Shown here: positions 1,650 through 16,579 of the stretch, in pieces
How positions within the stretch are numbered: the first letter of the stretch is position 1
Layout of the letters: every line of letters starts with the position of its first letter
Assembly: GCA_016839055.1 (NCBI GenBank)
Contig: JAEKNX010000010.1
Span: forward strand, 1-64,000
From: Spirochaetales bacterium
Lineage (GTDB): Bacteria > Spirochaetota > Spirochaetia > UBA9216
Reading direction: 5' to 3'
Length of the DNA stretch: 64,000 nucleotides
Program-made: the position numbers and the translations under genes
Notes under the pieces: model-generated
Database searches by the model: none
Seen by the model: only the letters and a program-made list of their open reading frames with translations
Told to the model about the DNA's origin: nothing

Positions 1650-2564
1650 TTATTTCAGTTTAGAAAACGCAACAGCTATCTCTGTACCGACCCTCGCGTT
1701 GTTGTAGACTAGCTGGATATTCGACTCCAGGGAGTCGCCGCCGGTAATCTGCTTAACCCTGTCAAGAAGGAAGGGGGTCGTCTCCTTTCCTTTAATTCCT
1801 TTTTTATCCGCCTCGGAGAGGGCCTGAGTTATTGCGGCGTCGATCTTGTCCGGATCCATTTCATACTCTTCGGGTATGGGATTGGCTATTACCATTCCGC
1901 CTTCCAGGCCCAGCTTCCACTTGGCGTGGAGTACTCCGGCAATGGCTTCGGCGTCATCGTAGCGGTAGTCAACCTTGAAACCGCTTTTTCTGATATAGAA
2001 GGCCGGCAGATCGTCGGTTCCAAAACCCGCAACCGGAACGCCCATGGTCTCCAGGTATTCGAGGGTGAGGCCAATATCCAGAATTGATTTCGCGCCGGCA
2101 CAGATTACCGCGACATTAGTTGCGGCAAGCTCCTGAAGGTCGGCCGAGATGTCAAAGCTGTTTTCCGCGCCGCGGTGAACTCCGCCTATGCCTCCGGTTA
2201 CAAATACCCTTATTCCGGCAAGGTTCGCTGCTATCATGGTGGCTGCTACCGTTGTAGCTCCGTTGAGGCCGTTTGAGACAATGTGGGCAAGGTCGCGCCT
2301 GGATGCTTTGAGGATGTTCGTGGCAGTTCCAAGGTATTCCACCTCTTCACGGCTCAGGCCTATCTTTATCCTGCCGCCTAAGATGGCGATGGTTGCGGGA
2401 ACCGCGCCGCCTTTGCGGACTATCTCCTCGACGGCAAGGGCCGTCTCGACATTTCGGGGGTAGGGCATCCCGTGTGAGATTATTGTAGATTCGAGGGCAA
2501 CAACGGCCCGTCCGCTCGCAAGCGCCTCTGAGACTTCGTCTTTGATATCAAGATAATCAGTCAT
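1650..2564 (-). CDS. psuG: Pseudouridine-5'-phosphate glycosidase
   Basis: This 304-residue protein matches the PsuG family along its whole length. The enzyme splits pseudouridine 5'-phosphate into uracil and ribose 5-phosphate in the cytoplasm by breaking a C-C glycosidic bond. Visible family features are ALESTIISHGMP near the N-terminus (catalytic Glu25), VTGGIGGVHRGAE (about 123-134), FDISADL with the metal-binding aspartate (about 137-143), and CAGAKSILD carrying the Schiff-base lysine K159. The start codon lies 1 base after the psuK stop, and the ribosome binding site GAGGAGAAAAG overlaps the psuK end. The two genes are therefore co-transcribed and probably translationally coupled. Confidence 0.95.
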   Translation of the reverse strand: MTDYLDIKDEVSEALASGRAVVALESTIISHGMPYPRNVETALAVEEIVRKGGAVPATIAILGGRIKIGLSREEVEYLGTATNILKASRRDLAHIVSNGLNGATTVAATMIAANLAGIRVFVTGGIGGVHRGAENSFDISADLQELAATNVAVICAGAKSILDIGLTLEYLETMGVPVAGFGTDDLPAFYIRKSGFKVDYRYDDAEAIAGVLHAKWKLGLEGGMVIANPIPEEYEMDPDKIDAAITQALSEADKKGIKGKETTPFLLDRVKQITGGDSLESNIQLVYNNARVGTEIAVAFSKLK

Positions 2565-2565
2565 A

Positions 2566-3492
2566 TTACTTTTCTCCTCTGAGTATTTTATTCAATCTCT
2601 CCGGTTTAAGGTCAGGTGAAACAGTATCCTTCGATTCCGCGGCAATTCCCGCGCAGGTCATTCCGCATTTAAGAAGCGTTTCACCTTCTGCGTTATTGTA
2701 TTTTCCGAAGGCAATTCCTGCCATGAAGGCGTCGCCGCTTCCGGTTGTGTTCACGGCGGATATTTTTTCGGGTTCAAGGAACCATTTTCCTTTGCGGCTT
2801 CGGAAGAAAGCACCCTCGGCGCCTAGGGTAATGAAGATGTTTGAAACAGACCGTTCGGCTATGATCTCCGCCGCGGTCGACGCAGACGCCGGTGAGTTAA
2901 CCTTTAGGCCTGACAGAATCTCCGCCTCAATAGCGTTCAGCTTGATGGAGTTAATATTTCTAATAAGATCGGCCCTCTTTTTAAGTTTTACTCCCGAGAC
3001 GGCATCAAAGAGGATATCTCCGCGCCGCATTTGGAGCAGCAGCTTAAGAGTCTCGGCCTCCAGGTTGTTGTCTGCTATTACTATAAATGCTTCTTTAATG
3101 AAACTGGTCTTTCCGGACAAAAGCGCAGGGCTTATTTCTTCTGTTATTTTCATGTCTGAAACGGCGGCTTCAAGTTCGCCGGCCTCATTCATTATCGCCG
3201 CGTAAATCGATGTTCGGCCGCCTTGAAGAACGGAGGCTTCGCTCATGTCAATTCCGGTATTCCGACACTCTTTTATAAGGTAGTCCCCAAAGCTGTCATT
3301 GCCGATTACGGTGAGCAGTTTTACCGGCAGACCGAGCCTTGCGATGTTTTCGGCAATATTTCTGCCGACTCCGCCGGGTGAAATATTAATAGTTCCGGGA
3401 TTAGAATCATTTGGTCTGAAGCCGCTTTTCGGCAGACCGGTGATATCTACATTACTTCCGCCTATTACGGCAATATATTTATCAGTTATCAT
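2566..3492 (-). CDS. psuK: PfkB-family kinase, probable pseudouridine kinase
   Basis: This 308-residue ribokinase-fold protein has the PfkB N-terminal block (GGVGRNIAENIARLG, about 40-54) and the C-terminal block NTTGSGDAFMAGIAFG, whose Asp is the catalytic base. The N-terminal DSNPG segment and the RTSIYAA segment resemble PsuK rather than ribokinase. Together with the adjacent psuG this supports phosphorylation of pseudouridine to pseudouridine 5'-phosphate, the first step of its breakdown. Because the neighbouring sugar operon has no kinase of its own, this enzyme could also serve other nucleosides or sugars; that is inference. There is no Shine-Dalgarno, and the promoter almost touches the start codon. 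Confidence 0.88.
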   Translation of the reverse strand: MITDKYIAVIGGSNVDITGLPKSGFRPNDSNPGTINISPGGVGRNIAENIARLGLPVKLLTVIGNDSFGDYLIKECRNTGIDMSEASVLQGGRTSIYAAIMNEAGELEAAVSDMKITEEISPALLSGKTSFIKEAFIVIADNNLEAETLKLLLQMRRGDILFDAVSGVKLKKRADLIRNINSIKLNAIEAEILSGLKVNSPASASTAAEIIAERSVSNIFITLGAEGAFFRSRKGKWFLEPEKISAVNTTGSGDAFMAGIAFGKYNNAEGETLLKCGMTCAGIAAESKDTVSPDLKPERLNKILRGEK

Positions 3493-3501
3493 CGTTTATT
3501 C

Positions 3502-3530
3502 TGTATAACGTTTGAGGGAACAGCTGTCAA
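3502..3530 (-). promoter_or_regulatory. Promoter of psuK-psuG, near-leaderless
   Basis: On the minus strand TTGACA (3525-3530), a 17-base spacer and TATACA (3502-3507) are followed after only 9 bases by the psuK ATG. Transcription would start about 2-3 bases before the codon, with no room for a ribosome binding site. Confidence 0.6.
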
Positions 3531-3611
3531 TGCCGGGGATCTGTCTCCGGTAATAATATAAATATTGTTTTTTAATCGGTTATAAAGTAAGGTTGTTTAA
3601 AAGGAATGCTG

Positions 3612-4334
3612 ATGAAAAATGAACCGATGTACATGAATGTTTTTCGAATCCTATCCAAGAGGATGGACGCAGGGGTATATAAGACTGATGAGCTCCTTCC
3701 TCCCGAGCCTCTGCTGCAGGACGAGTTTCAGGTGAGCAGAACTACCATTAGAAAGGCTATGGAGATGCTTGCGGGTGAAAAGTACGTGAGTATTAAGCAG
3801 GGAAAGGGAACAAAGGTGCTGGACCGGAGTATCATGTCCCAGCAGTTGAATTACGTCAGTTCTTTTTCAGAGACTCTGATAAAGAAGGGCTGTAATGTGT
3901 CTCTGAAATCAATTAATTTAAAAAAGGTTAAGGCTGACTCGGCTATGGCAGATGAGCTTTGCATAGAAGCAGGTGTTGAGCTCTTTCTTCTCGAGAGGGT
4001 TTATCTCTCTGATTTGAAACCGATCGCTATATCACGAAATTTCATCATTCCAAGATTTGTACCGGGGCTCGGCGAAGATTATATGAATATGAAATCTCTT
4101 TACAGGTATTTTGAGACACATTGGGGTATCACAATTGAGTCCGCTTTTGACCGAATAACCGCTCGTGCTGCGGATGAAGATGAAGCCCGTATTCTCGATC
4201 TTGAAAAAGGTGCTCCCCTGTTAATAGATCACAGAGTATCGAACACCATGGGCAAACCCTTTGAGGTCGTATATCTGATTATCGATGCTGCATCCTATGA
4301 GTTCAGCATATTCATGAGGGGCCGTCCGGTCTGA
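3612..4334 (+). CDS. GntR-family regulator with UTRA ligand domain
   Basis: This cytoplasmic DNA-binding regulator is about 240 residues long. The N-terminal winged helix (residues about 8-70) shows the GntR pattern LPPEPLLQDEFQVSRTT followed by IRKAMEMLAGE. The remainder (about 90-240) is a UTRA domain (LERVYLSD, ISRNFIIP, ...IDHRVSNTMGKPFEVVYLI), which binds sugars or sugar phosphates in this family. The ATG at 3612 is preferred over that at 3606 because AAGGA (3601-3605) is 6 bases from the former and abuts the latter. It lies directly upstream of the sugar operon, whose promoter carries palindromic sites. It is probably the repressor of that operon and of the isomerase gene at 10960-11784. 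Confidence 0.9.
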   Translation: MKNEPMYMNVFRILSKRMDAGVYKTDELLPPEPLLQDEFQVSRTTIRKAMEMLAGEKYVSIKQGKGTKVLDRSIMSQQLNYVSSFSETLIKKGCNVSLKSINLKKVKADSAMADELCIEAGVELFLLERVYLSDLKPIAISRNFIIPRFVPGLGEDYMNMKSLYRYFETHWGITIESAFDRITARAADEDEARILDLEKGAPLLIDHRVSNTMGKPFEVVYLIIDAASYEFSIFMRGRPV

Positions 4335-4344
4335 GTTTTTTTTG

Positions 4345-4394
4345 TTGACGGCTAAACATCGTGATGATACTATCTATAACATAGTGATGTTATA
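4345..4394 (+). promoter_or_regulatory. Promoter and double operator of sugar operon
   Basis: TTGACG (4345-4350), a 17-base spacer and TACTAT (4368-4373) form a good sigma-70 promoter. A perfect palindrome follows at 4375-4394 with arms TATAACAT and ATGTTATA around AGTG, covering the expected start of transcription. A second, imperfect copy (AACATCGTGATG, 4355-4366) lies in the spacer, 23 bases upstream of the matching core AACATAGTGATG (4378-4389). Such placement is typical for a repressor. The same core occurs at 11808-11819. Confidence 0.75.
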
Positions 4395-4417
4395 ATGAAT
4401 ATAATCAGGAGATAGCT

Positions 4418-5626
4418 GTGAACAACTTTGACTTCTACAACCCTGTCAGAGTCCATTTTGGGGCCGGGCAGTTGGAAAATATTGGAGAAATTGCGTCTGG
4501 ACTAGGGCGGCGGGGATGTGTCGTCTCCTACAAAGACCTTGGACCGCTTGAAAGCGTCTGCGATCGCCTTATTGGTTTACTCAAACAGAAGGGGATTACT
4601 GTTTTCACGTTTTTTAATGCTGAACCTAATCCTGATATATCGACCATCGAACTCGGAGCTGAATTCTGTCGTGACAACAGCATTGATTTTGTAATAGGTC
4701 TTGGAGGCGGAAGTGCCATGGATGCAGCCAAGGCAATCTCCGCTGCAGTGTATTATGACGGAGAAGCCTGGAATATGGTTTACAGCCGTCATGATGAGGT
4801 TAAGGCCGTTCCGCCGGAGAAAGCCTTGCCGATGATCATGATTCCTCCCCTGCCGGCTACCGGCTCTGAGATGAATCAGTGTTCGGTTGTCAGTAATAGA
4901 GCATTGAAGGAAAAATCATATATATGGGCAGAGTGTCTCTATCCTAAGGCTGCGGTAATCGATCCGGAGCTTACTCTTACTCTACCGTCCTATCAGACCG
5001 CCTGTGCCGCCGCCGACTCAATCTCCCATGTTCTTGAGATTTATATCAACGGCGAGGAGGACACGCCGCTTCAGCATTCATTTCAGGAAGGAATCATGAG
5101 AACGGTAATAGATAATGTTCATCTTGCCCTCGCCGAGCCTGGAAATATCAATGCGCGGGCAAATCTGCAGTGGGCGGCAACCTGCGCTATAAACGGTTGG
5201 GCATCCCCTGGGGACGCCTGGACTCCTATTCACCAGGTTGCGCATAATCTGACCTCCCTTTATGGAATAGCCCACGGTGCATCGCTGTCAGCCCTTATGC
5301 CTGCCTGGATGAAAACATTTAAGTCACGAAGAACCTCAAGATATTTTAATTTCGCGGTCAATGTGATGAGGGTTAATCCTGAAGGAAAAGAAGAGACGGC
5401 CGTTATCGATGAGGGGATTAAGAAATTTGAAGATTTCCTAAGGGTAATAGGGGTTCCGGTAAGCCTGAAAGAACTCGGAATTCCAGCTCGGGGCATTCCT
5501 GAAATTATCAGCGGAGTAAGAACTGTGAGTTTCAACGGCGAGGATGTACTTTCCTGTAATCCGCCTGTTACAGCCGAGGATCTCCGGCTGATGCTTGAGA
5601 ATGCTGATCCGGCAGGGGAGATTTAA
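4418..5626 (+). CDS. Iron-containing alcohol dehydrogenase
   Basis: This 402-residue group III (iron-type) alcohol dehydrogenase resembles the BDH/YqhD branch, which reduces short aldehydes with NAD(P)H. Visible features are the nucleotide-binding GLGGGSAMDAAK (95-105), the ATGSEMN loop (about 148-154), and metal ligands D200 and H204 in ADSISHV plus H272/H276 and H286 in IHQVAHNLTSLYGIAHG. The start is GTG with AGGAG about 6 bases upstream. It is the first gene of the operon and lies 2 bases before the aldolase gene. It probably removes the aldehyde (acetaldehyde, if the aldolase acts like DeoC) as an alcohol, regenerating NAD. The actual substrate is inferred. Confidence 0.9.
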   Translation: MNNFDFYNPVRVHFGAGQLENIGEIASGLGRRGCVVSYKDLGPLESVCDRLIGLLKQKGITVFTFFNAEPNPDISTIELGAEFCRDNSIDFVIGLGGGSAMDAAKAISAAVYYDGEAWNMVYSRHDEVKAVPPEKALPMIMIPPLPATGSEMNQCSVVSNRALKEKSYIWAECLYPKAAVIDPELTLTLPSYQTACAAADSISHVLEIYINGEEDTPLQHSFQEGIMRTVIDNVHLALAEPGNINARANLQWAATCAINGWASPGDAWTPIHQVAHNLTSLYGIAHGASLSALMPAWMKTFKSRRTSRYFNFAVNVMRVNPEGKEETAVIDEGIKKFEDFLRVIGVPVSLKELGIPARGIPEIISGVRTVSFNGEDVLSCNPPVTAEDLRLMLENADPAGEI

Positions 5627-5628
5627 AG

Positions 5629-6306
5629 ATGCTGAATGTTGAAGAAGTAGCAAAGATGATGGATCTCAGCTGTGTCCGGGCCGACAACACCCTTGATGAG
5701 ATCAGGGCCGCGGCAGATACGGCGAAAAAATATAACTGCATTGCTGTGTTCGCGCTGCCTGCCCACACCCCCTATCTGGCGAAGCTTCTTTGTGACCGGC
5801 CGGATATCCTCATAGGTGGAACGGTCGGTTTTCCCGACGGAGGCGCCACCACGACTGGTAAAGTTCATGAGGCTAAAGAGCTTCTTTTGATGGGGGTTAG
5901 CGAACTCGACATGGTTATAAATATCGGCTGGCTAAAGGCTGGTGATGATGAGGCTGTAGCCTCTGATATTCGGAGCGTCGTCGAGGCGGCTGGAAGTATT
6001 CCTGTAAAGGTAATTATAGAATGTCATTATTTGACTGATGAGCAGATTGTCAGGGCCAGCAGGATCTGTGTTCACGCCGGCGCGAGCTTTGTGAAGACAG
6101 GTACCGGATGGGCCCCCACCGGCGCCACGCTTGAAAACATCGAGCTGATCGCCAGGACTGTCGGAGATGACTGTCATGTGAAGGCTGCCGGAGGCGTAAG
6201 GGATACTGAAACCCTTCTTGCAATGCACAGGCTAGGTGCAAGCCGCTTCGGAGTAGGTGCGGGAACGGCTGTGGCAATTCTCGAGAATCTCGGTTCATTA
6301 AAATAG
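5629..6306 (+). CDS. DeoC-family aldolase, divergent N-terminus
   Basis: This 225-residue class I aldolase belongs to the DeoC family (deoxyribose-5-phosphate to acetaldehyde plus glyceraldehyde-3-phosphate). The Schiff-base lysine K156 (FVKTGTGW), the proton-relay lysine K185 (VKAAGGVRD), ELDMVINIG with D94, and GGTVGFPDGG are all present. The usual N-terminal DHT(L)LKP signature is replaced by MDLSCVRADNT. The CVNP-like strand reads IAVFALPAHTP. These changes lie at the substrate side, so a different sugar phosphate is possible. The gene sits in an operon with an alcohol dehydrogenase and a sugar ABC transporter. The symbol deoC is not given because of the divergence. Confidence 0.85.
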   Translation: MLNVEEVAKMMDLSCVRADNTLDEIRAAADTAKKYNCIAVFALPAHTPYLAKLLCDRPDILIGGTVGFPDGGATTTGKVHEAKELLLMGVSELDMVINIGWLKAGDDEAVASDIRSVVEAAGSIPVKVIIECHYLTDEQIVRASRICVHAGASFVKTGTGWAPTGATLENIELIARTVGDDCHVKAAGGVRDTETLLAMHRLGASRFGVGAGTAVAILENLGSLK

Positions 6307-6312
6307 GAATAA

Positions 6313-6328
6313 CTCCTCAGGGGAGGAG
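6313..6328 (+). promoter_or_regulatory. Small stem-loop before binding-protein gene
   Basis: CTCCTC (6313-6318) and GAGGAG (6323-6328) pair around a 4-base loop in the leader between the aldolase and binding-protein genes. An A-run rather than a T-run follows, so it would not terminate forward transcription. It may protect the 5' end of a processed binding-protein mRNA. Confidence 0.35.
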
Positions 6329-6348
6329 ATAAAAAAATGGGGGAATAG

Positions 6349-7401
6349 ATGAAAAAATTATTTGTTCTTATTATGGCTGTAGCACTGGTTGTGCTTACAG
6401 GCTGTACGAAAGCAGATTCTGCTTCAAACGGAGCGGAAGAGAAAACTTCAACTGTTACAGAAAAATCAGCACCGAAAAGTGATGTATTCTGTGTTTCACT
6501 CGGCTGGCAGGAAAATGAGTCGGGACAGAGGCAGACTCTCGGATATGAGGAAGCCTTTAAAGATTTTGGAATTGCAAAGGATAAGGTTCTCTGGTCGAAC
6601 GCCAACTATGATGCAAAGCTTCAATCTGAGCAGATTGATGCATTCATAAAGATGAATCCGAAGGCTCTTTTTGTTACTCCGTCAGATCCTGCAGGTATTA
6701 CCCAGGCTGTAAAGCGGGCGACCGATGCGGGTATTCCCGTCTTCGTTGCTGATGCTATTATCGCCGGTGTTCCGGCAGTAACATCTATCTGTTCCAATGA
6801 TTTTGGTATGGGTACATGGTCAATGAAATGGATTATCGATCAGATTGGCGGGAAGGGAAAAGTCGCTGTCATAGATCTTCCTAACAATGAAGCATGGGAT
6901 CTGAGAGGACAGGGCGCGAGATACATGCTGAGCCAGTATCCTGACGTTGAAGTTGTCGCGCAGTGGTCCTGGGATTCAACAGGAGCGGTAACACCCCGCC
7001 AGGCAGTCGAAAACATGCTAACCGCCAACCCGAAAAACGGCGATCTCGATGCAATATGGTGTGCCTGGGACGGAGCCGCCATGGAAGGCGCTCTTGCAAT
7101 CAAGGATGCCGGCAGAAAGGGCGAGATCATTACAACCGGAATAGACGGCGGAGAATATGCGTTCAGCATTATGAAGAATGATGGCGTCTTCGCTCTCACT
7201 ATGGCGCAGAGTATTTATTATATGTCTTACAACTCAGTGCGCTACGCAAAAGATTATCTTGAAGGTAAGCAGGTTCCGAGATTTGTCATAGCTCCTGTAT
7301 ATGCTGCAACCCAGAGTTCTTTAAAAAGCGCTCCGGCTGATGCATATAACTATGATATTCCCGGTAAGGCCGATGCTTATGGATGGGTTCCTGTCCTTTA
7401 A
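6349..7401 (+). CDS. Sugar ABC transporter substrate-binding lipoprotein
   Basis: This 350-residue periplasmic binding protein is of the RbsB/Peripla_BP_4 type. It begins with a lipoprotein signal peptide whose lipobox LTGC places Cys19 as the anchored residue; a low-complexity Ser/Thr/Glu/Lys linker follows. The mature domain shows the family features FVTPSDPAGITQAVKRA and GIPVFVADA in the first lobe, and AIWCAWDGAAMEGALAI and TTGIDGGEYA in the second. It should capture a pentose- or hexose-like sugar and deliver it to the two permeases encoded downstream. A strong terminator follows directly, so this gene is probably expressed above the rest of the transporter. Confidence 0.92.
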   Translation: MKKLFVLIMAVALVVLTGCTKADSASNGAEEKTSTVTEKSAPKSDVFCVSLGWQENESGQRQTLGYEEAFKDFGIAKDKVLWSNANYDAKLQSEQIDAFIKMNPKALFVTPSDPAGITQAVKRATDAGIPVFVADAIIAGVPAVTSICSNDFGMGTWSMKWIIDQIGGKGKVAVIDLPNNEAWDLRGQGARYMLSQYPDVEVVAQWSWDSTGAVTPRQAVENMLTANPKNGDLDAIWCAWDGAAMEGALAIKDAGRKGEIITTGIDGGEYAFSIMKNDGVFALTMAQSIYYMSYNSVRYAKDYLEGKQVPRFVIAPVYAATQSSLKSAPADAYNYDIPGKADAYGWVPVL

Positions 7402-7415
7402 TATTCAGTAATAAG

Positions 7416-7466
7416 CATGCCTTTCTTCTTTGAATTTAATTTGAATGGGGGAAGGCGTGTTTTTTT
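7416..7466 (+). terminator. Intrinsic terminator inside the ABC operon
   Basis: A 13-base-pair stem (7416-7428 with 7447-7459, including G-U pairs) is followed by seven T residues (7460-7466). It begins 15 bases after the binding-protein stop codon and ends just before the AAGGAG of the ATPase gene. It should stop part of the transcripts, which would favour the binding protein. Confidence 0.75.
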
Positions 7467-7476
7467 AAGGAGAATG

Positions 7477-9000
7477 ATGGTGACTGAATTCAGTCTTGAA
7501 ATGAAAGGCATAACAAAGCAGTTTCCTGGAGTTCTGGCCCTCGATAATGCAAACTTCAACCTGAGGCAGGGTGAGGTGCATGCGCTTCTTGGAATAAACG
7601 GCGCCGGAAAATCAACCCTGATAAAGGTTCTCTCTGGTGTTTATCAGAAGGATGGCGGGGAAATAATAATAAACGGGGAAAATGTCAACATTGACAGTCC
7701 TGCAAGTTCAAAAACCATGGGCATCGCTACGGTTTATCAGGATCCGCAGATGATTCCCTCATTCACAGGCTATGAGAACATCTTTCTTGGAAGTGAATCT
7801 GAAGGAAAGGGACTTTTTCCGGTGATACATCGGAAGAGACTCAGGCTTAAAGCGGAAGCGCTGCTGGATAAATTTCCTGTAGATATCAATCTGTCTATGC
7901 CGGTCAACCGGCTTGAAGCCGTCGAGAAAGAGAGCATTGCAATCCTGAGGGCCCTGTCACAGGAAAAGATGGACATCCTTATTCTTGATGAGCCGACTTC
8001 AATTCTGACCAGGAAGGAGATAGCGGTCCTTTTTGACAGAATTCAGCTTCTCAAGGAAAGAGGAATTTCTATTATCTATATCACTCATAGACTCGATGAA
8101 GTCTTTGAAGTAGCCGACAGGTTTACGGTCTATCGAAACGGCTGTCATGTCGGTACTTATAATACCAATGATGGGGGAATGGATCATGCAAAGATTGCCG
8201 AACTGATGCTCGGCGACAAGCTCGAAAAGATCTATCCGGATAAATCTACAGCTATAGGAGAGCCTGTCCTTGATGCTGATAATATCAGACTCACCGGAGC
8301 CTTCAGTGATATAAGTTTTACTGCCCGGAAGGGTGAGGTTCTCGGAGTCTTCGGCCTTGTTGGTTCGGGAATAGATGAGCTTTCAAAATCCCTGTTTGGA
8401 ATCATGCCGCTTTCCGCGGGACAGCTTTTGAAGCATGGAAAAGAAATCAAACTGAAAACTGCCGTAGACGGCTTGAAAAACGGCATTTTTCTTGTACCCG
8501 GAGACCGGAGGCAGGAAGGTCAGATAGGTAATGAATCTGTTAGTTTTAACATAACCTTGTCCAATCTAAAGAAAATTTCACGGGCAGGCCTTGTTGACCG
8601 CCGGGCGGAAAACCGGGACTCCTATGAGCTGATTGACAAGCTCGAATTGAGGCCTCGTGACAGCCGTAAGCTCGTGTCGCTTTTAAGCGGCGGAAACCAG
8701 CAGAAAGTCGTTATCTCGAAGGGCCTCTATACCGATTCGGAGGTCTATATTTTCTGTGAGCCGACGGTCGGGGTCGATGTTGGGGCGAAGACCGGAATAT
8801 ACCGGGTTATCCGTGAACTCTCGAAAGATAAGGGCGTTATTGTAATAGGTTCCGACTGTGAAGAGATTTATGGAATATGCGACAGGGCTGTTGTTCTATA
8901 CAAGGGGAAGATGGTTATGAATAAACCCGTCCGGGAAATCAGGCTTGATCAGATGCTTCTATACGGTTTGACGGGAGGAAATAATGATAAAGAGAATTAA
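7477..9000 (+). CDS. Sugar ABC transporter ATPase, two nucleotide-binding domains
   Basis: This is an RbsA/MglA-type ATPase of about 507 residues with two fused ABC domains, usual for sugar importers of this class. The first domain has Walker A GINGAGKST, Walker B ILILDEPTS and the H-loop YITHR. The second has a degenerate P-loop (GLVGSGIDEL), the signature LSGGNQQKVVISKGL and a CEPTVGVD segment, as is typical. The start at 7477 fits AAGGAG at 7467-7472. A longer frame from 7417 would begin inside the terminator hairpin and adds an unlikely N-terminus. The gene overlaps the next permease by 17 bases. Confidence 0.92.
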   Translation: MVTEFSLEMKGITKQFPGVLALDNANFNLRQGEVHALLGINGAGKSTLIKVLSGVYQKDGGEIIINGENVNIDSPASSKTMGIATVYQDPQMIPSFTGYENIFLGSESEGKGLFPVIHRKRLRLKAEALLDKFPVDINLSMPVNRLEAVEKESIAILRALSQEKMDILILDEPTSILTRKEIAVLFDRIQLLKERGISIIYITHRLDEVFEVADRFTVYRNGCHVGTYNTNDGGMDHAKIAELMLGDKLEKIYPDKSTAIGEPVLDADNIRLTGAFSDISFTARKGEVLGVFGLVGSGIDELSKSLFGIMPLSAGQLLKHGKEIKLKTAVDGLKNGIFLVPGDRRQEGQIGNESVSFNITLSNLKKISRAGLVDRRAENRDSYELIDKLELRPRDSRKLVSLLSGGNQQKVVISKGLYTDSEVYIFCEPTVGVDVGAKTGIYRVIRELSKDKGVIVIGSDCEEIYGICDRAVVLYKGKMVMNKPVREIRLDQMLLYGLTGGNNDKEN

Positions 9001-9958
9001 GGAGAACTTCTCCCTTATAGCCTTTGCCGGACTCATAATAATAGTCCTGGTAGTTTTTAGTTCGGCAAGTGAGCAGTTTATGACTCTGGGCAACATGCTC
9101 AAAGCCTTTAAGCATCTTTCAATCACCGCAATATCTGCCCTTGGGCTGACCTTTGTCGTTGCGATCGGACATAATGATATGTCCTTTCATTATTTCAGCT
9201 GTTTTGCCGCAATGACAATGAGCTGGCTCATCGGGCTTGGATTTCCGCCTGTTCCGTCAATACTGATAGGATTGCTTCCCGCTGTATTTTTCGGCTGGAT
9301 TAATGGAGTTGCCATCGGAACCTTCAAGCTTCCCGACATGATTGTTACAATCGGGCTTGGTTCGGCCGTATATGGTCTTGCGTACATCTACAGCGGCGGT
9401 TCATACATCTATAAAAATTTTCTTCAAAGCGGAATTCTAGAACTTAACAATGGGAAACTCGGTAGTCTTCCTGTTCCCGTTGTTTTTTTGATTCTTCTCT
9501 ACGGAGTTAGCTGGATTGTGCTTCACCATTCGGTTCACGGAAGACGTTTCTATGCGATAGGGAGCAATAAGACCGCGGCTCTGTTTTCGGCCATCCCGGT
9601 GAGGAAGTATATCATAGCCGCCTTTATTATCTGCGCCCTACTCAGCTCGTTTACGAATATGATCCAGATAGCCGCCCAGGGAAAGGGATATCTCAAGGGC
9701 GGCCTGATGCTGCTGATGCCGTCCTGGGCCGCTGTTTTTATCGGGATCTCGATTTTCAAGAAACCTACCGTCTATGGTACCTTCCTAGGCGCCTTTCTGA
9801 TATCCATTATGCAGAACGGTTTTACTATGCTGTCTGTTCCTTTTTACTTCATGGATTTTGTCATCGGAATCGTTCTAATCCTGTCCATTATTATTTCCGG
9901 ATTAGATGTAACAAGGATAAAGCCTAAAAGTTTATTGAAAAAAAGGAGTAAGGTATAA
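8984..9958 (+). CDS. Sugar ABC transporter permease 1 (RbsC family)
   Basis: This 324-residue inner-membrane permease of the BPD_transp_2 family has about eight to ten hydrophobic segments and the family core GLTFVVAIGHNDMSFH and VTIGLGSAVYGLAYIYSGG. Residues near RRFYAIGSNKTAALFSAIPV match the cytoplasmic loop that contacts the ATPase in RbsC-like permeases. It starts within the ATPase gene behind GGAGG and ends in an overlap of one base with the next permease. It should form a heterodimeric channel with that second permease. Confidence 0.9.
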   Translation: MIKRIKENFSLIAFAGLIIIVLVVFSSASEQFMTLGNMLKAFKHLSITAISALGLTFVVAIGHNDMSFHYFSCFAAMTMSWLIGLGFPPVPSILIGLLPAVFFGWINGVAIGTFKLPDMIVTIGLGSAVYGLAYIYSGGSYIYKNFLQSGILELNNGKLGSLPVPVVFLILLYGVSWIVLHHSVHGRRFYAIGSNKTAALFSAIPVRKYIIAAFIICALLSSFTNMIQIAAQGKGYLKGGLMLLMPSWAAVFIGISIFKKPTVYGTFLGAFLISIMQNGFTMLSVPFYFMDFVIGIVLILSIIISGLDVTRIKPKSLLKKRSKV

Positions 9959-10923
9959 TGCAGGGCTCAGTAAAAAATAAGCTTGAAATCATCTTTAGAC
10001 CGAATACTATCCTCCTGTGGATCCTATTGCTGCTGGTTTTGTTTTTCTCCTCCAGATCGGTGGCCTTCAGATCAGTTGATAACCTGATGGAGGTCCTGCG
10101 TTCCTGCGGAATCATCGCTCTGATGGTTCTGGGAGTAACCTGGATTGTCGCAAGCGGTGAAACCGATATTAGTTTTCCGGAAATTGCGGGTTATGCCAGC
10201 ATGATGACTGCTCTTATGGTCAAAAATGGTCTTACGTGGGGCCTTGCCGCCGGAATAGCAATTTCTACCGGAGTTCTCTATGGGTTCCTGAGCGGCACGC
10301 TGATAACCCGCTTTCGTTTTCCGGCCCTCATTGCCACAATAGCGGTTGGAAGCCTTGCAAAGTCCATAGCCAACATGATCAACAAGGGGCAACCGCTTTA
10401 CCTTATGAACATCGACCCGTCAATTCAATTTATTGTATACGGTAAGGTCTTTGGAATTCCTGTCCTGTTTTTAGTGGTCGTCATAATTTATCTGATTGCC
10501 GCCTGGATTCAGGACCATACAACAACTGGGCAGCATCTTTATGCTCTTGGAGAAAACAGAACGGCAGCCCTTGAGGCTGGTATTAAAGAAAAGAGGATAA
10601 TAATCAGTTTTTTTGCCTTGTCCGCTCTTCTCGCTTCGGTTAGCGGGGTTCTCCTGGCGGCGTCCTTCAGTTCGGGACAGCCCAGGATAGGAGGTTCGTT
10701 TTTCATCGACGGGCTGACGACAGTTTTTCTAGGTGCCATGATAATCAAGGCCGGAAAGCCTAATGTAATCGGAACGCTGATAGGGGCCGTAATTATATCG
10801 GTCTTAAGTAACGGAATAACGATGATGGGAGTTCCATATTATATCGGTTCTATTATAAAGGGACTTTTAATGATTACCGGTGTTGCGGTTATTGTTCTTT
10901 CGCGAAAAGGCATAATCAAGTAA
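9958..10923 (+). CDS. Sugar ABC transporter permease 2 (RbsC family)
   Basis: This 321-residue BPD_transp_2 permease is related to permease 1. It contains LGVTWIVASGETDISF, the ATIAVGSLAKSIANM segment and the ATPase-contact loop QHLYALGENRTAALEAGI. Start and upstream stop overlap in TAATG, which indicates translational coupling. It ends one base before a strong bidirectional terminator. Two distinct permeases with one double ATPase is the arrangement of transporters such as LsrACDB or RhaPQST. This resemblance does not fix the substrate. Confidence 0.9.
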   Translation: MQGSVKNKLEIIFRPNTILLWILLLLVLFFSSRSVAFRSVDNLMEVLRSCGIIALMVLGVTWIVASGETDISFPEIAGYASMMTALMVKNGLTWGLAAGIAISTGVLYGFLSGTLITRFRFPALIATIAVGSLAKSIANMINKGQPLYLMNIDPSIQFIVYGKVFGIPVLFLVVVIIYLIAAWIQDHTTTGQHLYALGENRTAALEAGIKEKRIIISFFALSALLASVSGVLLAASFSSGQPRIGGSFFIDGLTTVFLGAMIIKAGKPNVIGTLIGAVIISVLSNGITMMGVPYYIGSIIKGLLMITGVAVIVLSRKGIIK

Positions 10924-10953
10924 AAAATCTGCCCCTGGCCAGGGGCAGATTTT
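10924..10953. terminator. Bidirectional intrinsic terminator
   Basis: A perfect 30-base palindrome has a GC-rich core (10931-10946) flanked by A-runs and T-runs on both sides. It separates the convergent permease and isomerase genes and should work in both directions. Confidence 0.9.
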
Positions 10954-10959
10954 ATAGAA

Positions 10960-11784
10960 TTAGATTGTTTTTATGAATAACAGGGAGTCGGTAACTGCTT
11001 CTTCCGCGTTGAGATCGTTCTCATATTCTATGGAAATAAAACCATCATAACCATAATTTTTGAGTTTTTTCATAACCTTCGGAAGTCCCGCGTCACCTTT
11101 TCCGGCTGCAATACCTGTCATTCTGACGCCCTTTCTGCTTGTCTGAATTCTCCATGCCTCCGATGAGTACTCTTGAAAGGCCCCGGATTTTTCAGTAATG
11201 AAATCCTTAAGATGGATATAGGATATGTATGGAAGCAGTATATCTACAGCAACCTCCGGGGATTCGTCAGCAAGAAGTGAATTTGCGGTATCGAAGTTTA
11301 TCCGGAGACATGGAGAGTTAATTGCCTCAATAATTGATGCGGCATCGCCTGTTTTTCCCGCAAATGGGCCGATATTTTCAAGAATCAGAGTGATATTCCT
11401 TTTTTCCGCCTCAGCGACGGCAGCCGATAGTTTTTTTATAAGTATCAACCTGTCCCTCTCTGAGCCTGTTTTGTCTCCGGTCAGTACTCTGACAAAGGGT
11501 GCGCCTAGTGTGGCTGCCGTATCAAGATCTTTTTTAAATTCTGCTTTTGTATATGCTGATTCGTCTGTGAAATCTGACAGGATTGTATAGCAGGATAATT
11601 GCAGGCCAAGTCTGTTGAGTTCAGTCTTGATCTCCTGCTGATTATTCTCTCTGTTCATATAGTAGCTCAGAAGTTCTACATAATTCAGATTCTGCTCTGC
11701 CGCCCAGTGAAGAAAGTTTTTTTGTTTCCAGTTATTCCTGTTAATCACAGCCTCAAGGCTCCACATACTAACCGATGGATGCAT
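10960..11784 (-). CDS. Sugar isomerase/epimerase-like TIM barrel
   Basis: This 274-residue member of the xylose-isomerase-like TIM-barrel (AP_endonuc_2) family is of the type that includes ketose 3-epimerases and inosose enzymes. The four metal/catalytic residues of the family are visible: Glu in LILENIG, Asp in INFDTAN, His in YIHLKD and Glu in SIEYEND. It is cytoplasmic, has no signal peptide and is transcribed towards the ABC operon from its own promoter. That promoter carries the same operator core as the operon, so the enzyme probably acts on the imported sugar before phosphorylation or cleavage. The exact reaction is unknown. Confidence 0.85.
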   Translation of the reverse strand: MHPSVSMWSLEAVINRNNWKQKNFLHWAAEQNLNYVELLSYYMNRENNQQEIKTELNRLGLQLSCYTILSDFTDESAYTKAEFKKDLDTAATLGAPFVRVLTGDKTGSERDRLILIKKLSAAVAEAEKRNITLILENIGPFAGKTGDAASIIEAINSPCLRINFDTANSLLADESPEVAVDILLPYISYIHLKDFITEKSGAFQEYSSEAWRIQTSRKGVRMTGIAAGKGDAGLPKVMKKLKNYGYDGFISIEYENDLNAEEAVTDSLLFIKTI

Positions 11785-11804
11785 TCTTTTTTCCTTTTAA
11801 AGAT

Positions 11805-11849
11805 AGTAACATAGTTATGTATAATAAAATGAAAAATTGCTTTTGTCAA
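11805..11849 (-). promoter_or_regulatory. Promoter and operator of isomerase gene
   Basis: On the minus strand TTGACA (11844-11849), a 17-base spacer and TATTAT (11821-11826) form a near-consensus promoter. Immediately downstream lies the core that reads AACATAGTTATG on the plus strand (11808-11819). It matches the operator of the sugar operon in 11 of 12 positions and in its place relative to the -10 box. Confidence 0.75.
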
Positions 11850-12032
11850 AGTTTTAGGAAATACTATATTTTTATAGAAATTGAATTCTTTATAGCTATG
11901 CTTCTTAATTATTGATAATTTAATGATCGGTATTTATCAACAGCCTGAAAAGCCATCGGATGGGAGAACTTCATATTGTCAACGGAACGTCAATAATTCA
12001 AATAACTAAGCTAGCTGAATTCTGTCGTCTCT

Positions 12033-13499
12033 CTATTTTTTCAGTTCACCAAGCAGCTCTTCAAGATTGACCGTTGCATAGGTAGAGGAATAATCCGAAA
12101 CGGCATAAGGGATAATCAAGTCCTGATTATGTATCATGGAACCGCAGGAATACACCACATTGGGGACATATCCTTCCCTCTCTGTTTCATTAGGTGCTAA
12201 AAGAGGCGAATTAAGCCGGCCTATCTCAATTTCTGGATTTTTAAGATCCATCAGAATTGCGCCCAGAACATATTCCCTCATTGGTCCCACAGCGTGAGTT
12301 ATTATAAGCCAGCCATCTTTCGTTTCCAATGGAGAACCGCAGTTACCCACCTGGATGAATTCCCAGGGGTATTTGGGGGTCTGAATCAGCTGAGCCTCAT
12401 TCCAGAGATTAATATTGTCAGAATATGATATATAATTATTTAATCCATCCATACGGCAGAGCATTGCATATTTTCCATTAATTTTTCTGGGGAATAATGC
12501 CATGCCTTTATTCCTGGAAATTGGACCATGGAGGGGGAGAACGTTAAAATGGTAGAAATCTTTTGTTTCAATAAGTTTGGGCATGATGGATATCCCGTCA
12601 TATGCTGTATATGTCCCATAATAGATAACTTCCCCATTGTCATCGACAAACCTTACAAAACGGGCATCCTCTATGCCCCGCTGTTCCATCGAGGAAATTG
12701 GGAAAATAACCCTTTCACAAATAGCTGAATCCATGGAAAAATCAATTTCATAATGAGATGACGCCAGCCACATAATCTGATTTAACGCCAGTTCATTTTC
12801 TATAAGGTTACTGGACTGTTTAATAGCATCTTTAACACAACGCTCCAATTCTCCATAGGTAAAGGTGTCACCAATATCTTTGAGTACCTCATCAGGGGAT
12901 ACATGGCTCCGGAACTCCTGAATTTCATTTAAGGTTTCAAGGAATGTTTTTTTATTATAAATAAATCTTTTTATCCGCTCAGCTTCAGCAAGCATTTTAC
13001 CAACCGGCTCCATTACGAAATCACTGTTTTTATCCAGAATACCGGAACGAAAAACTATTGAAGAAAGGTGTCCTTCCCCTGTAGCCCGAAAACTAAGGTT
13101 CACTCTTTTTTCACCCGGCATTATCCCTGTCTGATCAGGAGATTCTACAATAGAAGGATTAAAAAAAGCCGCTGCTTCAATGGAATATTCCATTGTAAAA
13201 TATGAACCAATCAAGGCTTTTTGGGAGATATTAAGGCTTTCAATATCAATCCCCATCTCCTCCATTAATTCTTTCAGGCAAATAAAATGTTTCGTGAAAA
13301 TATTGGAGATACTTCTATGTCTTCTGGCATAGCGCCTGAGAACCTGGTTCAGTTTTGTCTTAATTTCATCTTCACTCATCTGCAAAACCTGTTTGATGAT
13401 TGTTCTGCTTCTCTTGTCACCGGTATACATGAATCTGGCGATAACTCTTGATGAGTCAGGGCTAAACTGAACATCTTTTCTAATTACGTTAACCTGCAT
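12033..13499 (-). CDS. GH130-family mannoside phosphorylase/hydrolase-like protein
   Basis: This 488-residue protein has an N-terminal domain (about 1-190) and a five-bladed propeller typical of the DUF377/GH130 family. That family acts on beta-mannosides, mostly by phosphorolysis. Family features in the second half are ARFVRFVDDNGEVIYYGTYTAYDG, GNCGSPLETKDGWLIITHAVG and YVPNVVYSCGSMIHNQDLIIPYAVSD. The length with its extra N-terminal domain fits the longer GH130 members. There is no signal peptide, so it acts in the cytoplasm. An AAAGGGGG ribosome site precedes the ATG. It lies divergent to the deacetylase, glycosyltransferase and glycosidase genes and probably serves the same glycan. Confidence 0.85.
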   Translation of the reverse strand: MQVNVIRKDVQFSPDSSRVIARFMYTGDKRSRTIIKQVLQMSEDEIKTKLNQVLRRYARRHRSISNIFTKHFICLKELMEEMGIDIESLNISQKALIGSYFTMEYSIEAAAFFNPSIVESPDQTGIMPGEKRVNLSFRATGEGHLSSIVFRSGILDKNSDFVMEPVGKMLAEAERIKRFIYNKKTFLETLNEIQEFRSHVSPDEVLKDIGDTFTYGELERCVKDAIKQSSNLIENELALNQIMWLASSHYEIDFSMDSAICERVIFPISSMEQRGIEDARFVRFVDDNGEVIYYGTYTAYDGISIMPKLIETKDFYHFNVLPLHGPISRNKGMALFPRKINGKYAMLCRMDGLNNYISYSDNINLWNEAQLIQTPKYPWEFIQVGNCGSPLETKDGWLIITHAVGPMREYVLGAILMDLKNPEIEIGRLNSPLLAPNETEREGYVPNVVYSCGSMIHNQDLIIPYAVSDYSSTYATVNLEELLGELKK

Positions 13500-13594
13500 A
13501 AAGACCCCCTTTTTATATTTCCCTGTAACTATTCTAACCCCATTATCCGTTTTTTATATAATTAATCAGTTTTATTTTCAGAGGAATTCGGTGG

Positions 13595-13600
13595 TATAAT
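13595..13600 (+). promoter_or_regulatory. Extended -10 promoter of glycan operon
   Basis: TGGTATAAT gives an extended -10 element with consensus TATAAT at 13595-13600. The -35 region (TTATTT, 17 bases upstream) is poor. The leader to the ATG at 13619 is about 12 bases and includes AGAGGA. Confidence 0.55.
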
Positions 13601-13618
13601 ATTATCAAGAGGAATACG

Positions 13619-14266
13619 ATGTATGCCACTGACAAGGAAATCGGGCAAATTGCCGTCATTGTAGCTCATCCTGATGATGAAACACTCTGGGCAGGCGGCA
13701 CTCTTCTCTCCAGCTCATTCGAGAATTGTTTTATACTGAGTTTATGCCGGAGGGAAGATCCCGACAGGGCAGCCCGTTTTTACAGAGTATTGACGGAACT
13801 CGGGGCAAGCGGAACTATGGCTGATCTTGATGATGGTCCTCAGCAGGTTTTCTTGCCTGAATCTCTAATTGCAAATACCATCATTGATAACCTGCCGATC
13901 CGAATGTATGACAGAATTTACACACATAGTCCTCTCGGAGAATATACCAGACATAAGAGACACGAAGAAACAGGACGAGCTGTACTTATGCTCTGGCTAG
14001 CTGGATTACTACAGACTAAGGAAATCCTGCTGTTCGCCTATGACGACGGCGGGCATGCTCATCTGCCCAAACCCATAAAAAACGCCAATATTAAAGTAAA
14101 CCTCCCCGAAGAAATATGGGAGGAAAAATATCATTTAATTACAGATATATATAATTTTAATAAAGACAGTTTTGAGGCTAAAACCACGCCGGCAACAGAG
14201 GCGTTCTGGCAGGTTAAAACCCATGATGAAGCAAGGCAATGGCTTAAAAGGAAAAGGAGTGAGTGA
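13619..14266 (+). CDS. PIG-L/LmbE-type zinc deacetylase
   Basis: This 215-residue protein belongs to the PIG-L (LmbE) family of zinc-dependent N-acetylglucosamine or related deacetylases. The zinc motif AHPDDETLWAGG is near residue 17, and the third ligand is in the TRHKRHEETGRAV segment. There is no signal peptide, so it acts in the cytoplasm. It is first in a three-gene operon and overlaps the glycosyltransferase gene by 4 bases. Its substrate is probably an N-acetyl-sugar moiety of the compound handled by its neighbours. Confidence 0.88.
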   Translation: MYATDKEIGQIAVIVAHPDDETLWAGGTLLSSSFENCFILSLCRREDPDRAARFYRVLTELGASGTMADLDDGPQQVFLPESLIANTIIDNLPIRMYDRIYTHSPLGEYTRHKRHEETGRAVLMLWLAGLLQTKEILLFAYDDGGHAHLPKPIKNANIKVNLPEEIWEEKYHLITDIYNFNKDSFEAKTTPATEAFWQVKTHDEARQWLKRKRSE

Positions 14267-15408
14267 TGAAAGTTCTTGTTCTTTATGATTATCCCCCGTC
14301 ACCCGGAGGACTGGCGACTCAGGGAGATATGCTTTATAAAGGTCTGTGCGAAATGGGTGTTGATGCTCACGCAGCTCATTTTAACTCTGATCAGGAAAAG
14401 GAATGGTACTACAAATGGTTTAAGCCGGATGTCGTCATTGGCGTGGGTTACTGGGGTCACACTCCCGAAATAGTTCTTCATCCTCGGAGTTTCGGCATGA
14501 ACGCCGTTCCCTGGCTTGTAGCAGACGGCTATATTGCCAACTACCAGGAGGTTTTGAACAAGCTGCCGCTGATTCTTGTTACTTCGACATGGGTAAAAGA
14601 AATGTATGTCCGTGATGGTATCCACGCTGATAATATTGAAGTGCTTCCTGTAGGCTGTGATACAAAATCATTTATTCCGCGCGATCATAAAGATCCAAAA
14701 ATAATTGCTGTACGGGAGGCTCTGGGAGTTAATCCTGAAGAGCTGATGATACTGACTATTGGAGGAGATGCAGCCTCAAAAGGAGGACAGGAAGTAATGC
14801 ATGCTCTGTCACAGATTAATGATGAGGTACCTGACTGGAGATATGTCTGCAAAGTATGGCCTCAGGAGAGAACAACCACGCAGAACTCGGCAGATCTGAA
14901 TTTAGCGGCTCAACTCGGAATCGATAAAAAAGTTAACTTTCAAACCAATAGAATCTCTCGTAATTTCGTCCCCTATCTAATAGGCGCCTGTGATATCTAT
15001 GCCGCCCCCTCCCGCCTCGAAGGCTTCGGCATGCCGCAGGTTGAAGCCTGCTCCTGTGAAAAGCCCGTATTGAGTATAAAGGCGATGGGCCCTCTCGATA
15101 CGATGATTCATGGAAAAACAGCTCTTCTTGCAGGTGTTGCCAAGGAAATAATTCTTTGTGAAACAATACTGGGGGCCGAATCCGGATTCACTGAAGGAAA
15201 AAGAATTGTTTTTGACAAACCAAGAATAGTAGATTACCGGGCAAGCATCCCCGATATAGCAGAGTATTTGAAAATGCTTATGAATGATAAATCACTCAGA
15301 GAAAAACTTGGTAAAGCAGCGAGACTGCGGGTTGTAGAAAATTATGACTACCATGTTGTCGCTGAAAAATTTGTTAATATAGTCAGGAGGAAATTACAAA
15401 TTAATTAA
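14263..15408 (+). CDS. GT4-type glycosyltransferase
   Basis: This 381-residue GT-B glycosyltransferase has the GT4 donor-binding pattern PSRLEGFGMPQVEACSCEKPVLS, with the E-x7-E-like arrangement, at about residues 247-269. The N-terminal half begins with VLVLYDYPPSPGGLATQGD, the glycine-rich acceptor-side loop usual in this family. No membrane segment is seen. The start overlaps the deacetylase stop (ATGA), so translation is coupled. A deacetylase followed by a GT4 enzyme recalls mycothiol- or bacillithiol-like and glycolipid pathways, but nothing here proves that. Confidence 0.9.
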   Translation: MMKVLVLYDYPPSPGGLATQGDMLYKGLCEMGVDAHAAHFNSDQEKEWYYKWFKPDVVIGVGYWGHTPEIVLHPRSFGMNAVPWLVADGYIANYQEVLNKLPLILVTSTWVKEMYVRDGIHADNIEVLPVGCDTKSFIPRDHKDPKIIAVREALGVNPEELMILTIGGDAASKGGQEVMHALSQINDEVPDWRYVCKVWPQERTTTQNSADLNLAAQLGIDKKVNFQTNRISRNFVPYLIGACDIYAAPSRLEGFGMPQVEACSCEKPVLSIKAMGPLDTMIHGKTALLAGVAKEIILCETILGAESGFTEGKRIVFDKPRIVDYRASIPDIAEYLKMLMNDKSLREKLGKAARLRVVENYDYHVVAEKFVNIVRRKLQIN

Positions 15409-15409
15409 T

Positions 15410-16579
15410 ATGAATAAAAACGACTGGAAACAAATTGATGATGCGGAAAAAGCCGCGCTGGAAGTATTGAAGCACAATGCAATTGGTCCATTCCTTGGTC
15501 TACCCCGTACTGCCGGATGGGGATATCCCGAGCCATATACTAGAGACCTGCTTATAGCCCTGCCCGGTATGCTGTTGACCGGTGATAAAGACCTTGTAAA
15601 TCAGATGAGAAGAGTTCTGATGACTCTATCAGAGAACCAATCAGAACATGGTCACATTCCATCACTCGTTCATGATCCTGAGGATCGAGGTGCCAGTGAT
15701 ACAACGCCGCTATTTCTTGTCGGCTTATCCATATTCAGAATTTTTACTGGAGAGAAAGAATTTCTTAAAGATGCTGCGAATAAAGCGTTAAGTTGGATGA
15801 GCCATCAAAGTCCTACTGACGGGGTACTTATAGCCCAGCAGCCGACGACAGACTGGAGAGATGAGCAATGGGTTACCGGTTATGGTATCTATGTAAACAC
15901 ACTGGTCTACTCTTATCTTCGTTTTTTTGGTCTTGATGATAAGGCTGAAGAATTCCGGAATTTCATGGATTATTTTAAAATATGCGGCGGAGAGATTCAT
16001 GCGCATGTTCACAACGTCCTTGCGGCGGAAAATAAACCCTATTATGTATTCTGGTCTTTCAAGGTTTACAGCAGTGAACGGTTTGATCTGCTCGGTAACA
16101 GTCTTGCAATACTTTCAGGGCTGGCCCCCCTGAAAAGAGCCAGGGAAATTATATCGTGGATCAATATAGAATGTGAAAATCTGAAGAAGAGGGGAGACCT
16201 GGCCGTTGATCTGCCGCCAAACTTCTTTCCCTATATAAGGAAGGAGGATCCGGACTGGCTCGGTAGATATGAAGAATACAACATGCCCGGCGAGTACCAC
16301 AATGGCGGCATATGGCCCTTTATTATCGGGTTCTATATTGCAGCCCTGGTAGCGGCCGAAGAATATCAGCTCGCGGAAAAGAAACTTCTTGTTATGACTG
16401 ATCTTATAAAAAAATCCAGTGATAATTCACTGTCCTTTGGTTTTAATGAGTGGATAAAAGCCCAGAATGGTGAAGTCAGAGGTCAGGACTGGCAAACATG
16501 GTCAGCGGCCATGTATATTTATGCCGCGCATTGCGTCAGAGACAGAAACACACCATTCTTCGACAAAATCCGGAATTAA
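15410..16579 (+). CDS. GH100-like six-hairpin glycosidase
   Basis: This 389-residue alpha/alpha-barrel glycosidase-like protein resembles neutral/alkaline invertases (GH100) and related debranching-type enzymes. Markers are PYTRDLLIALPG with a candidate acid residue D46, DWRDEQWVTGYG (148-159), GEYHNGGIWPFIIGFYIAALV (294-314, read in two parts), FNEWI with a candidate E347, and GQDWQTWSAAMYIYA near the end. There is no signal peptide. It starts 2 bases after the glycosyltransferase gene. The substrate may be a glucoside, sucrose-like sugar or mannosyl compound; family membership alone does not decide. Confidence 0.75.
   Translation: MNKNDWKQIDDAEKAALEVLKHNAIGPFLGLPRTAGWGYPEPYTRDLLIALPGMLLTGDKDLVNQMRRVLMTLSENQSEHGHIPSLVHDPEDRGASDTTPLFLVGLSIFRIFTGEKEFLKDAANKALSWMSHQSPTDGVLIAQQPTTDWRDEQWVTGYGIYVNTLVYSYLRFFGLDDKAEEFRNFMDYFKICGGEIHAHVHNVLAAENKPYYVFWSFKVYSSERFDLLGNSLAILSGLAPLKRAREIISWINIECENLKKRGDLAVDLPPNFFPYIRKEDPDWLGRYEEYNMPGEYHNGGIWPFIIGFYIAALVAAEEYQLAEKKLLVMTDLIKKSSDNSLSFGFNEWIKAQNGEVRGQDWQTWSAAMYIYAAHCVRDRNTPFFDKIRN

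Follow-up and report, generated by a model that had tools for sequence, protein, structure and literature searches.

Known Pathways and the Window Locus

The L-fucose and L-rhamnose pathways of Escherichia coli (FucI-FucK-FucA-FucO and RhaA-RhaB-RhaD) follow one order of roles: import, isomerase, FGGY kinase, aldolase, and an iron-dependent alcohol dehydrogenase (Fe-ADH) acting as reductase. The same order is proposed here for a sugar regulon at positions 3606 to 11849 of a 64,000-nucleotide stretch of a Spirochaetales bacterium (assembly GCA_016839055.1, contig JAEKNX010000010.1, positions 1 to 64,000), hereafter the window. It consists of two convergent transcription units that carry one predicted operator, with a GntR/UTRA regulator gene beside it. 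This is probably a substrate-induced sugar-catabolic regulon under repression by the GntR/UTRA protein, which uses an FGGY kinase supplied in trans from a second locus, C10, on another contig.

The window locus departs from the fucose and rhamnose systems in several respects. Its aldolase is a DERA-like class I enzyme, whereas FucA and RhaD are zinc-dependent class II aldolases; its kinase belongs to a clade separate from FucK and RhaB; a small TIM-barrel isomerase stands where FucI or RhaA would; the importer is of the CUT2 type; and control is by a GntR/UTRA protein, where those systems have the activators FucR or RhaSR. Moreover, the FGGY kinase gene of those systems is in the same operon, which is not the case in the window.

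Other described systems share parts of the design. Engineered ketose-1-phosphate routes to ethylene glycol utilise tagatose 3-epimerase, FucK, FucA, and FucO or YqhD (review PMC6995148). Epimerase, FGGY kinase, aldolase and YqhD-type reductase correspond one to one with the roles proposed here, but those routes are man-made and have other aldolase and kinase families. DeoC has the fold family and the catalytic Lys/Lys/Asp in common with the window aldolase, while the signature and pocket motifs differ here and the partner is an FGGY kinase. The Lsr autoinducer-2 system (LsrK, LsrF, LsrACDB) also combines a CUT2 importer, an FGGY kinase and a DeoC/Fba-family enzyme. However, the kinase here falls outside the LsrK line in the tree, no LsrG-like gene was seen, Fe-ADH and the isomerase are additional, and the regulator is a different one. 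Finally, the SPU bacterial microcompartment loci (PMC4207490) have a DeoC-type aldolase whose aldehyde product goes to an oxidoreductase, although shell genes were not seen here, and the oxidoreductase is an alcohol dehydrogenase here and an aldehyde dehydrogenase there. A literature search for the gene set, or for such a regulator with such an aldolase, returned no relevant paper, though one may exist all the same.

Operators and Promoters

An earlier note on this DNA had placed three copies of a 12-base operator core at 4355, 4378 and 11808, and reading the window sequence located all three at these positions. Copies had been described as lying directly after a -10 box. This holds for the one at 4378, directly 3' of the -10 box TACTAT, and for the one at 11808, directly 3' of the -10 box of a minus-strand promoter (TTGACA-17-TATTAT), but the copy at 4355 is within the 17-nt spacer of the first promoter, between TTGACG (4345) and TACTAT (4368). 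The 20-mer at 4375-4394, TATAACAT-AGTG-ATGTTATA, had been called a perfect palindrome; its 8-base arms match exactly, but the 4-base centre AGTG does not. Placement in the spacer and after the -10 box is the layout usual for repression. The two convergent units are separated by a perfect inverted repeat of 30 bases, likely a two-way terminator; it falls outside the loop rule of the scan and is not on its list.

How far the motif exceeds chance depends on its form. The bare 12-mer with up to two mismatches is weak evidence (seven matches in the window against 3.5 expected). In its palindromic form, AACATNRTNATGTW, two matches are found where 0.03 are expected. A position matrix was trained on twelve sites, all from other genomes; its three best scores in the window (20.1, 19.0 and 17.0) are the three operator copies, and the next best is 13.1. 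Three sites scoring at least 17 occurred in none of 400 simulated first-order Markov windows, and at least one such site in 44 of the 400. Across the 5.0 Mb of the bacterium's own genome, AACATNRTNATGTW is present in only four distinct places: two in the window and two at the paralogous GntR gene of C10. The raw genome-wide count is not above that of a reversed-pattern control (5 versus 4 strand matches); the meaning of these matches rests on their placement, and not on their number.

The regulator has an N-terminal GntR winged helix-turn-helix and a C-terminal UTRA domain, which places it in the HutC/UTRA subfamily; the Pfam domains confirm the GntR/UTRA regulator that had been claimed to adjoin the operator. 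Its orthologues, 69-72% identical, are encoded first in the same operon at two loci of related genomes (L029 and L151), and the predicted palindromic operator is conserved beside the regulator gene across relatives. The C10 paralogue is 41% identical to it, and the helix SRTTIR is common to both. Coordinates are collected in Table 1.

Table 1. Features of the regulon in the window
Feature	Position	Strand	Evidence
GntR/UTRA (HutC-type) regulator gene, presumed repressor	3606..4334	+	Pfam GntR 3.7e-15, UTRA 3.5e-27
Promoter of Fe-ADH operon, TTGACG-17-TACTAT	4345..4373	+	
Predicted operator 1, AAACATCGTGATGATA, between -35 and -10	4354..4369	+	matrix score 20.1, top in window
Predicted operator 2, TATAACATAGTGATGTTATA, just 3' of -10	4375..4394	no strand	
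Fe-ADH, YqhD/BDH-like, proposed aldehyde reductase	4418..5626	+	Pfam Fe-ADH 1.2e-40
DERA-like class I aldolase, diverged subfamily	5629..6306	+	TIGR00126 203.7 bits
Periplasmic sugar-binding lipoprotein, RbsB-like fold, non-ribose-type site	6349..7401	+	Peripla_BP_4 4.1e-45
CUT2-type ABC ATPase, two ABC domains	7477..9000	+	ABC_tran, two stretches
Permease A	8984..9958	+	BPD_transp_2 1.2e-24
Permease B	9958..10923	+	BPD_transp_2 1e-28
Perfect 30-base inverted repeat AAAATCTGCCCCTGGCCAGGGGCAGATTTT between convergent units	10924..10953	no strand	read directly in sequence
TIM-barrel sugar isomerase/epimerase	10960..11784	-	AP_endonuc_2 4.2e-32
Predicted operator 3, ATACATAACTATGTTA, just 3' of isomerase -10	11807..11822	-	matrix score 17.0, third in window
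Isomerase promoter, TTGACA-17-TATTAT	11821..11849	-	11/12 consensus matches, best within 3400-12000

Conservation of the Operator

Lack of the motif at orthologous operons had been named beforehand as one outcome that would refute the regulon; related genomes were searched, and the motif is conserved. Sites with the consensus AAACATNATGATGTTA are found at orthologous promoters in nine other genomes from six families of the class. At L029 (genome G101) and L151 (G120), AACATCATGATGTT is in the -35/-10 spacer before the Fe-ADH gene and AACATAATGATGTA precedes the GntR gene. The same two kinds of site are present in G003, before DeoC and before GntR, and in G004, G059, G022, G085, G219 and G171 the sites are at regulator/aldolase promoters. 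The placement of operator 1 is matched at L029, L151, L104 and L161.

The strict form is also specific. All nine zero-mismatch sites of AAACATNRTGATGTWW in ten genomes are at loci of the GntR/aldolase module, while the reversed AAACATNRTGATGTWW gave, in the same genomes, at most one match per strand even when one mismatch was allowed. Among the loci of GntR homologues (L009-L028), strict sites are restricted to the nearest homologues, and none was found at the more distant loci L014-L028. In G003, the locus of a more distant homologue has repeats of a related variant, AACATTATAATG, ahead of its binding-protein gene. Within the bacterium's own genome, seven of the ten other one-mismatch sites were read for further regulon members; they lie inside or between unrelated genes, with no convincing promoter.

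Given that the operators are top-ranked by a matrix from outside the genome and conserved in relatives, the one-operator regulon is real and conserved. This backs the two-part regulon of Fe-ADH, aldolase, CUT2 importer and TIM-barrel protein that the earlier note had put forward.

The isomerase belongs to the regulon on sound grounds, yet its link is weaker than that of the first operator. Of the 297 genomes of the class, only five have an orthologue, and each of these also has the GntR/aldolase module. In G101 and G120, as in the window, the isomerase gene and that of the last permease converge. The operator-like element before it has one mismatch in G101 (about 0.6% by shuffling) and two mismatches in G120 and in G003 (6-8% each by shuffling), and in G004, a strict site lies between the isomerase gene and a divergent regulator gene.

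Importer and Isomerase

An RbsB-like binding protein, a double-ABC ATPase and two BPD_transp_2 permeases make up a CUT2 importer. The binding protein matches the fold of 2ioy (Z 32.5); its closest folds are ribose-binding proteins, which has little bearing on the ligand. Ribose is unlikely to be the imported sugar: among the ribose contacts of RbsB, which we take to be N13, F15, F16, N64, D89, R90, R141, F164, N190, D215 and Q235, five of 11 are kept and six are changed, so the site is not that of a ribose-specific RbsB.

The isomerase has a Glu-Asp-His-Glu metal site (E136, D165, H191 and E253), which is invariant among six orthologues. Its structure model (pLDDT 88) is a xylose-isomerase-like barrel, and its closest match is Art22 (Z 32.5, 2.0 A over 260 residues), followed by AsbF, IolI and ketose 3-epimerases. 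No relevant paper was found in a literature search on Art22, the nearest solved structure.

Proposed Pathway and Its Kinase

From knowledge of the protein families, the following sequence of events may be proposed. The GntR/UTRA repressor would bind the AAACATNATGATGTTA-type operators over the spacer and start region of the two convergent promoters and block transcription. A sugar or sugar phosphate bound in the UTRA domain would release it, and the derepressed cell would then synthesise the CUT2 importer, the TIM-barrel isomerase or epimerase, the DERA-like class I aldolase and the Fe-dependent aldehyde reductase. The imported sugar would be isomerised or epimerised by the TIM-barrel enzyme and phosphorylated in trans by the FGGY kinase of C10, a locus that is under the same operator and also encodes a second DERA-like aldolase. 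Retro-aldol cleavage would yield a triose phosphate and a short aldehyde, and Fe-ADH would reduce the latter to an alcohol. This keeps the order of steps in the earlier note, from import to aldehyde reduction, but replaces its PfkB kinase.

The nearby PfkB, tentatively put forward as the phosphorylating enzyme, was rejected. Its psuK-like gene is adjacent to a psuG-like gene of the Indigoidine_A type (5e-136) at 1650-3492 on the minus strand, and this pair, which has the make-up of a pseudouridine salvage pair, is directly upstream of the regulator gene and divergent from it. The protein scores best to pseudouridine kinase, yet under the PRK09850 cut-off, and no operator precedes the gene.

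Relatives point to another kinase. The order at L151 is GntR, Fe-ADH, DeoC, FGGY kinase, binding protein, ATPase, two permeases and a convergent isomerase; the window operon lacks the FGGY kinase, and its gene set is otherwise that of L151. At L029, the order is GntR-FeADH-DeoC-FGGY-SBP-ABC (SBP, sugar-binding protein), the kinase gene again lying between those of the aldolase and the binding protein. Operon-borne FGGY kinases are present at L029, L151, L032, L033 and L036, and a further one is found at C10 (G000:C10, ~391.7-396 kb), where the order is GntR-DeoC-FGGY-SDR, with operators before GntR and before DeoC. The bacterium's genome has more than 20 FGGY-kinase matches. The 18 aldolase-linked FGGY kinases, however, form a single clade (100/100), and the C10 kinase is its sole member from this genome. 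No solved structure of a close relative of the kinase was found; the nearest are xylulokinases. The pathway kinase would thus be supplied from C10.

The main rival to this trans supply is that C10 serves another sugar. There would then be two separate pathways with sister regulators, whose operators are alike only through paralogy, and the window aldolase would cleave a free sugar or depend on an unrelated kinase. C10 does have its own regulator, aldolase and SDR, the two regulators are only 41% identical and differ in their UTRA ligand domains, the genome has its many FGGY-kinase matches, and the window aldolase has lost the phosphate-site serines. Nevertheless, the operator and the HTH helix are the same at both loci, all close relatives have the kinase within the operon, C10 alone carries a member of the clade, and the window isomerase is closest (53%) to one in G004 that is encoded beside a C10-type regulator. 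On balance, separate pathways appear unlikely.

Besides the separate equipment of C10, which may point to a different sugar, further observations weigh against the proposed regulon and its pathway. The autoregulatory site of relatives is missing before the window regulator gene, and G120, G003 and G004 have only a weak operator ahead of the isomerase gene. Near the C-terminus of the window aldolase (6240-6300), Gly replaces the Arg of GVRTAI that Fe-ADH-linked aldolases of relatives keep.

Aldolase and Reductase

Fe-ADH keeps the metal ligands of YqhD (D194, H198, H267 and H281) and the GGS..D motif, as expected of the YqhD/BDH type. The aldolase retains the catalytic residues K167, K201 and D102 (E. 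coli numbering). When compared with PDB 3ngj and the canonical DeoC of the same genome, it lacks the phosphate-site motifs DHTLLK, TSTGF and SS/SA, having DLSCVR, TGTGW and GVGAGT instead, and it has the changes C47F, L20V and T18S. Across the FGGY-linked aldolases, DHTLLK becomes D[LIV]S.V., TSTGF becomes [GSA]TGW, and the Ser-rich phosphate motif is altered. Since the catalytic residues are kept and the pocket motifs changed, the enzyme is of class I but has a different pocket. The description 'DeoC-like' was right as to family, but the enzyme belongs to a diverged subfamily and is probably not a plain deoxyribose-phosphate aldolase.

This makes plain salvage of 2-deoxyribose or nucleosides improbable. 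In that case, a canonical DeoC would produce glyceraldehyde-3-phosphate and acetaldehyde, and Fe-ADH would convert the latter to ethanol. The score against the DeoC model TIGR00126 does exceed the cut-off of 117.3 bits, and the intact catalytic residues would allow it. However, a separate canonical DeoC (290 bits, C1:147272), with DHTLLK and TSTGF, is encoded elsewhere in the genome; C47, L20, T18 and the TSTGF and SS motifs are changed in the window subfamily; and the operon is without a nucleoside phosphorylase, a phosphopentomutase or a PfkB-type deoxyribokinase. A chance local resemblance of a repeated motif, with no regulon behind it, would fit the barely enriched 12-mer at two mismatches, but it is contradicted by the cross-genome matrix, the simulations and, already, the conservation of the motif, and is hardly credible.

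Distribution and Neighbouring Loci

Close Fe-ADH/aldolase/kinase sets are found in Prolixibacteraceae JC049, a Phycisphaerae metagenome-assembled genome and Lentisphaerae WC36, so that the enzymes of the module range more widely than the spirochaete operator. The DERA-like aldolase with its own FGGY kinase clade occurs in Spirochaetota, Bacteroidota, Planctomycetota and Lentisphaerota. At other loci of the class, the aldolase and/or the kinase is beside another TIM-barrel protein, a zinc dehydrogenase or a flavin oxidoreductase; with partners this varied, aldolase and kinase seem to form a core that can be reused.

Several neighbouring observations can be added. In nine loci (L105, L106, L109, L153, L158, L159, L160, L161 and L163), aldolase and/or FGGY kinase recur with a second TIM-barrel family, an IolM-like zinc dehydrogenase, an OYE-type flavin oxidoreductase and sometimes a glyoxalase-fold protein, which suggests a sister pathway. 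An apparent GntR-aldolase fusion at L161 and L163 was rejected as a wrong-frame artefact. In Bacteroidota and Lentisphaerota, the Fe-ADH-DeoC-FGGY genes are followed by those of membrane proteins that have no match in Pfam or NCBIfam (L032:13453-14454 and L036:13505-14647); these are perhaps a sugar transporter in place of the ABC importer. A third aldolase system of the same genome (L111, contig C23, 5877-17844) has a DERA-like aldolase gene divergent from that of a sigma-54 activator; its other genes are those of a CUT2 importer, two FGGY kinases, an aldo-keto-reductase-like protein and a zinc dehydrogenase, and the GntR operator is absent. A similar set is found at L155 in G003. In the window itself, a minus-strand GH130 phosphorylase-like gene faces a set of PIG-L deacetylase, GT4 glycosyltransferase and invertase/GDE_C-like genes (12033-16579), which together have the appearance of a separate cluster for glycans or glycosides.

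Taken more broadly, we hold with moderate confidence that this is an undescribed catabolic module of at least four phyla. In it, the kinase and class II aldolase that ketose-1-phosphate pathways use would have given way to a new FGGY clade and a re-specialised DERA-like class I aldolase. Its sugar would be neither ribose nor deoxyribose; in spirochaetes it would be controlled through one GntR/UTRA operator, and in this bacterium two loci would share the kinase. Through the operator, one can approach an aldolase subfamily that is labelled deoxyribose-phosphate aldolase in databases, against its sequence and its partners. With regulator, operator, kinase, aldolase, reductase and importer defined together, a small test set could reveal the substrate. 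If this reading is true, 'DeoC' is the wrong annotation for a set of genes in spirochaetes, Bacteroidota, Planctomycetota and Lentisphaerota, and the regulon would be a clean example of a single operator linking loci on separate contigs.

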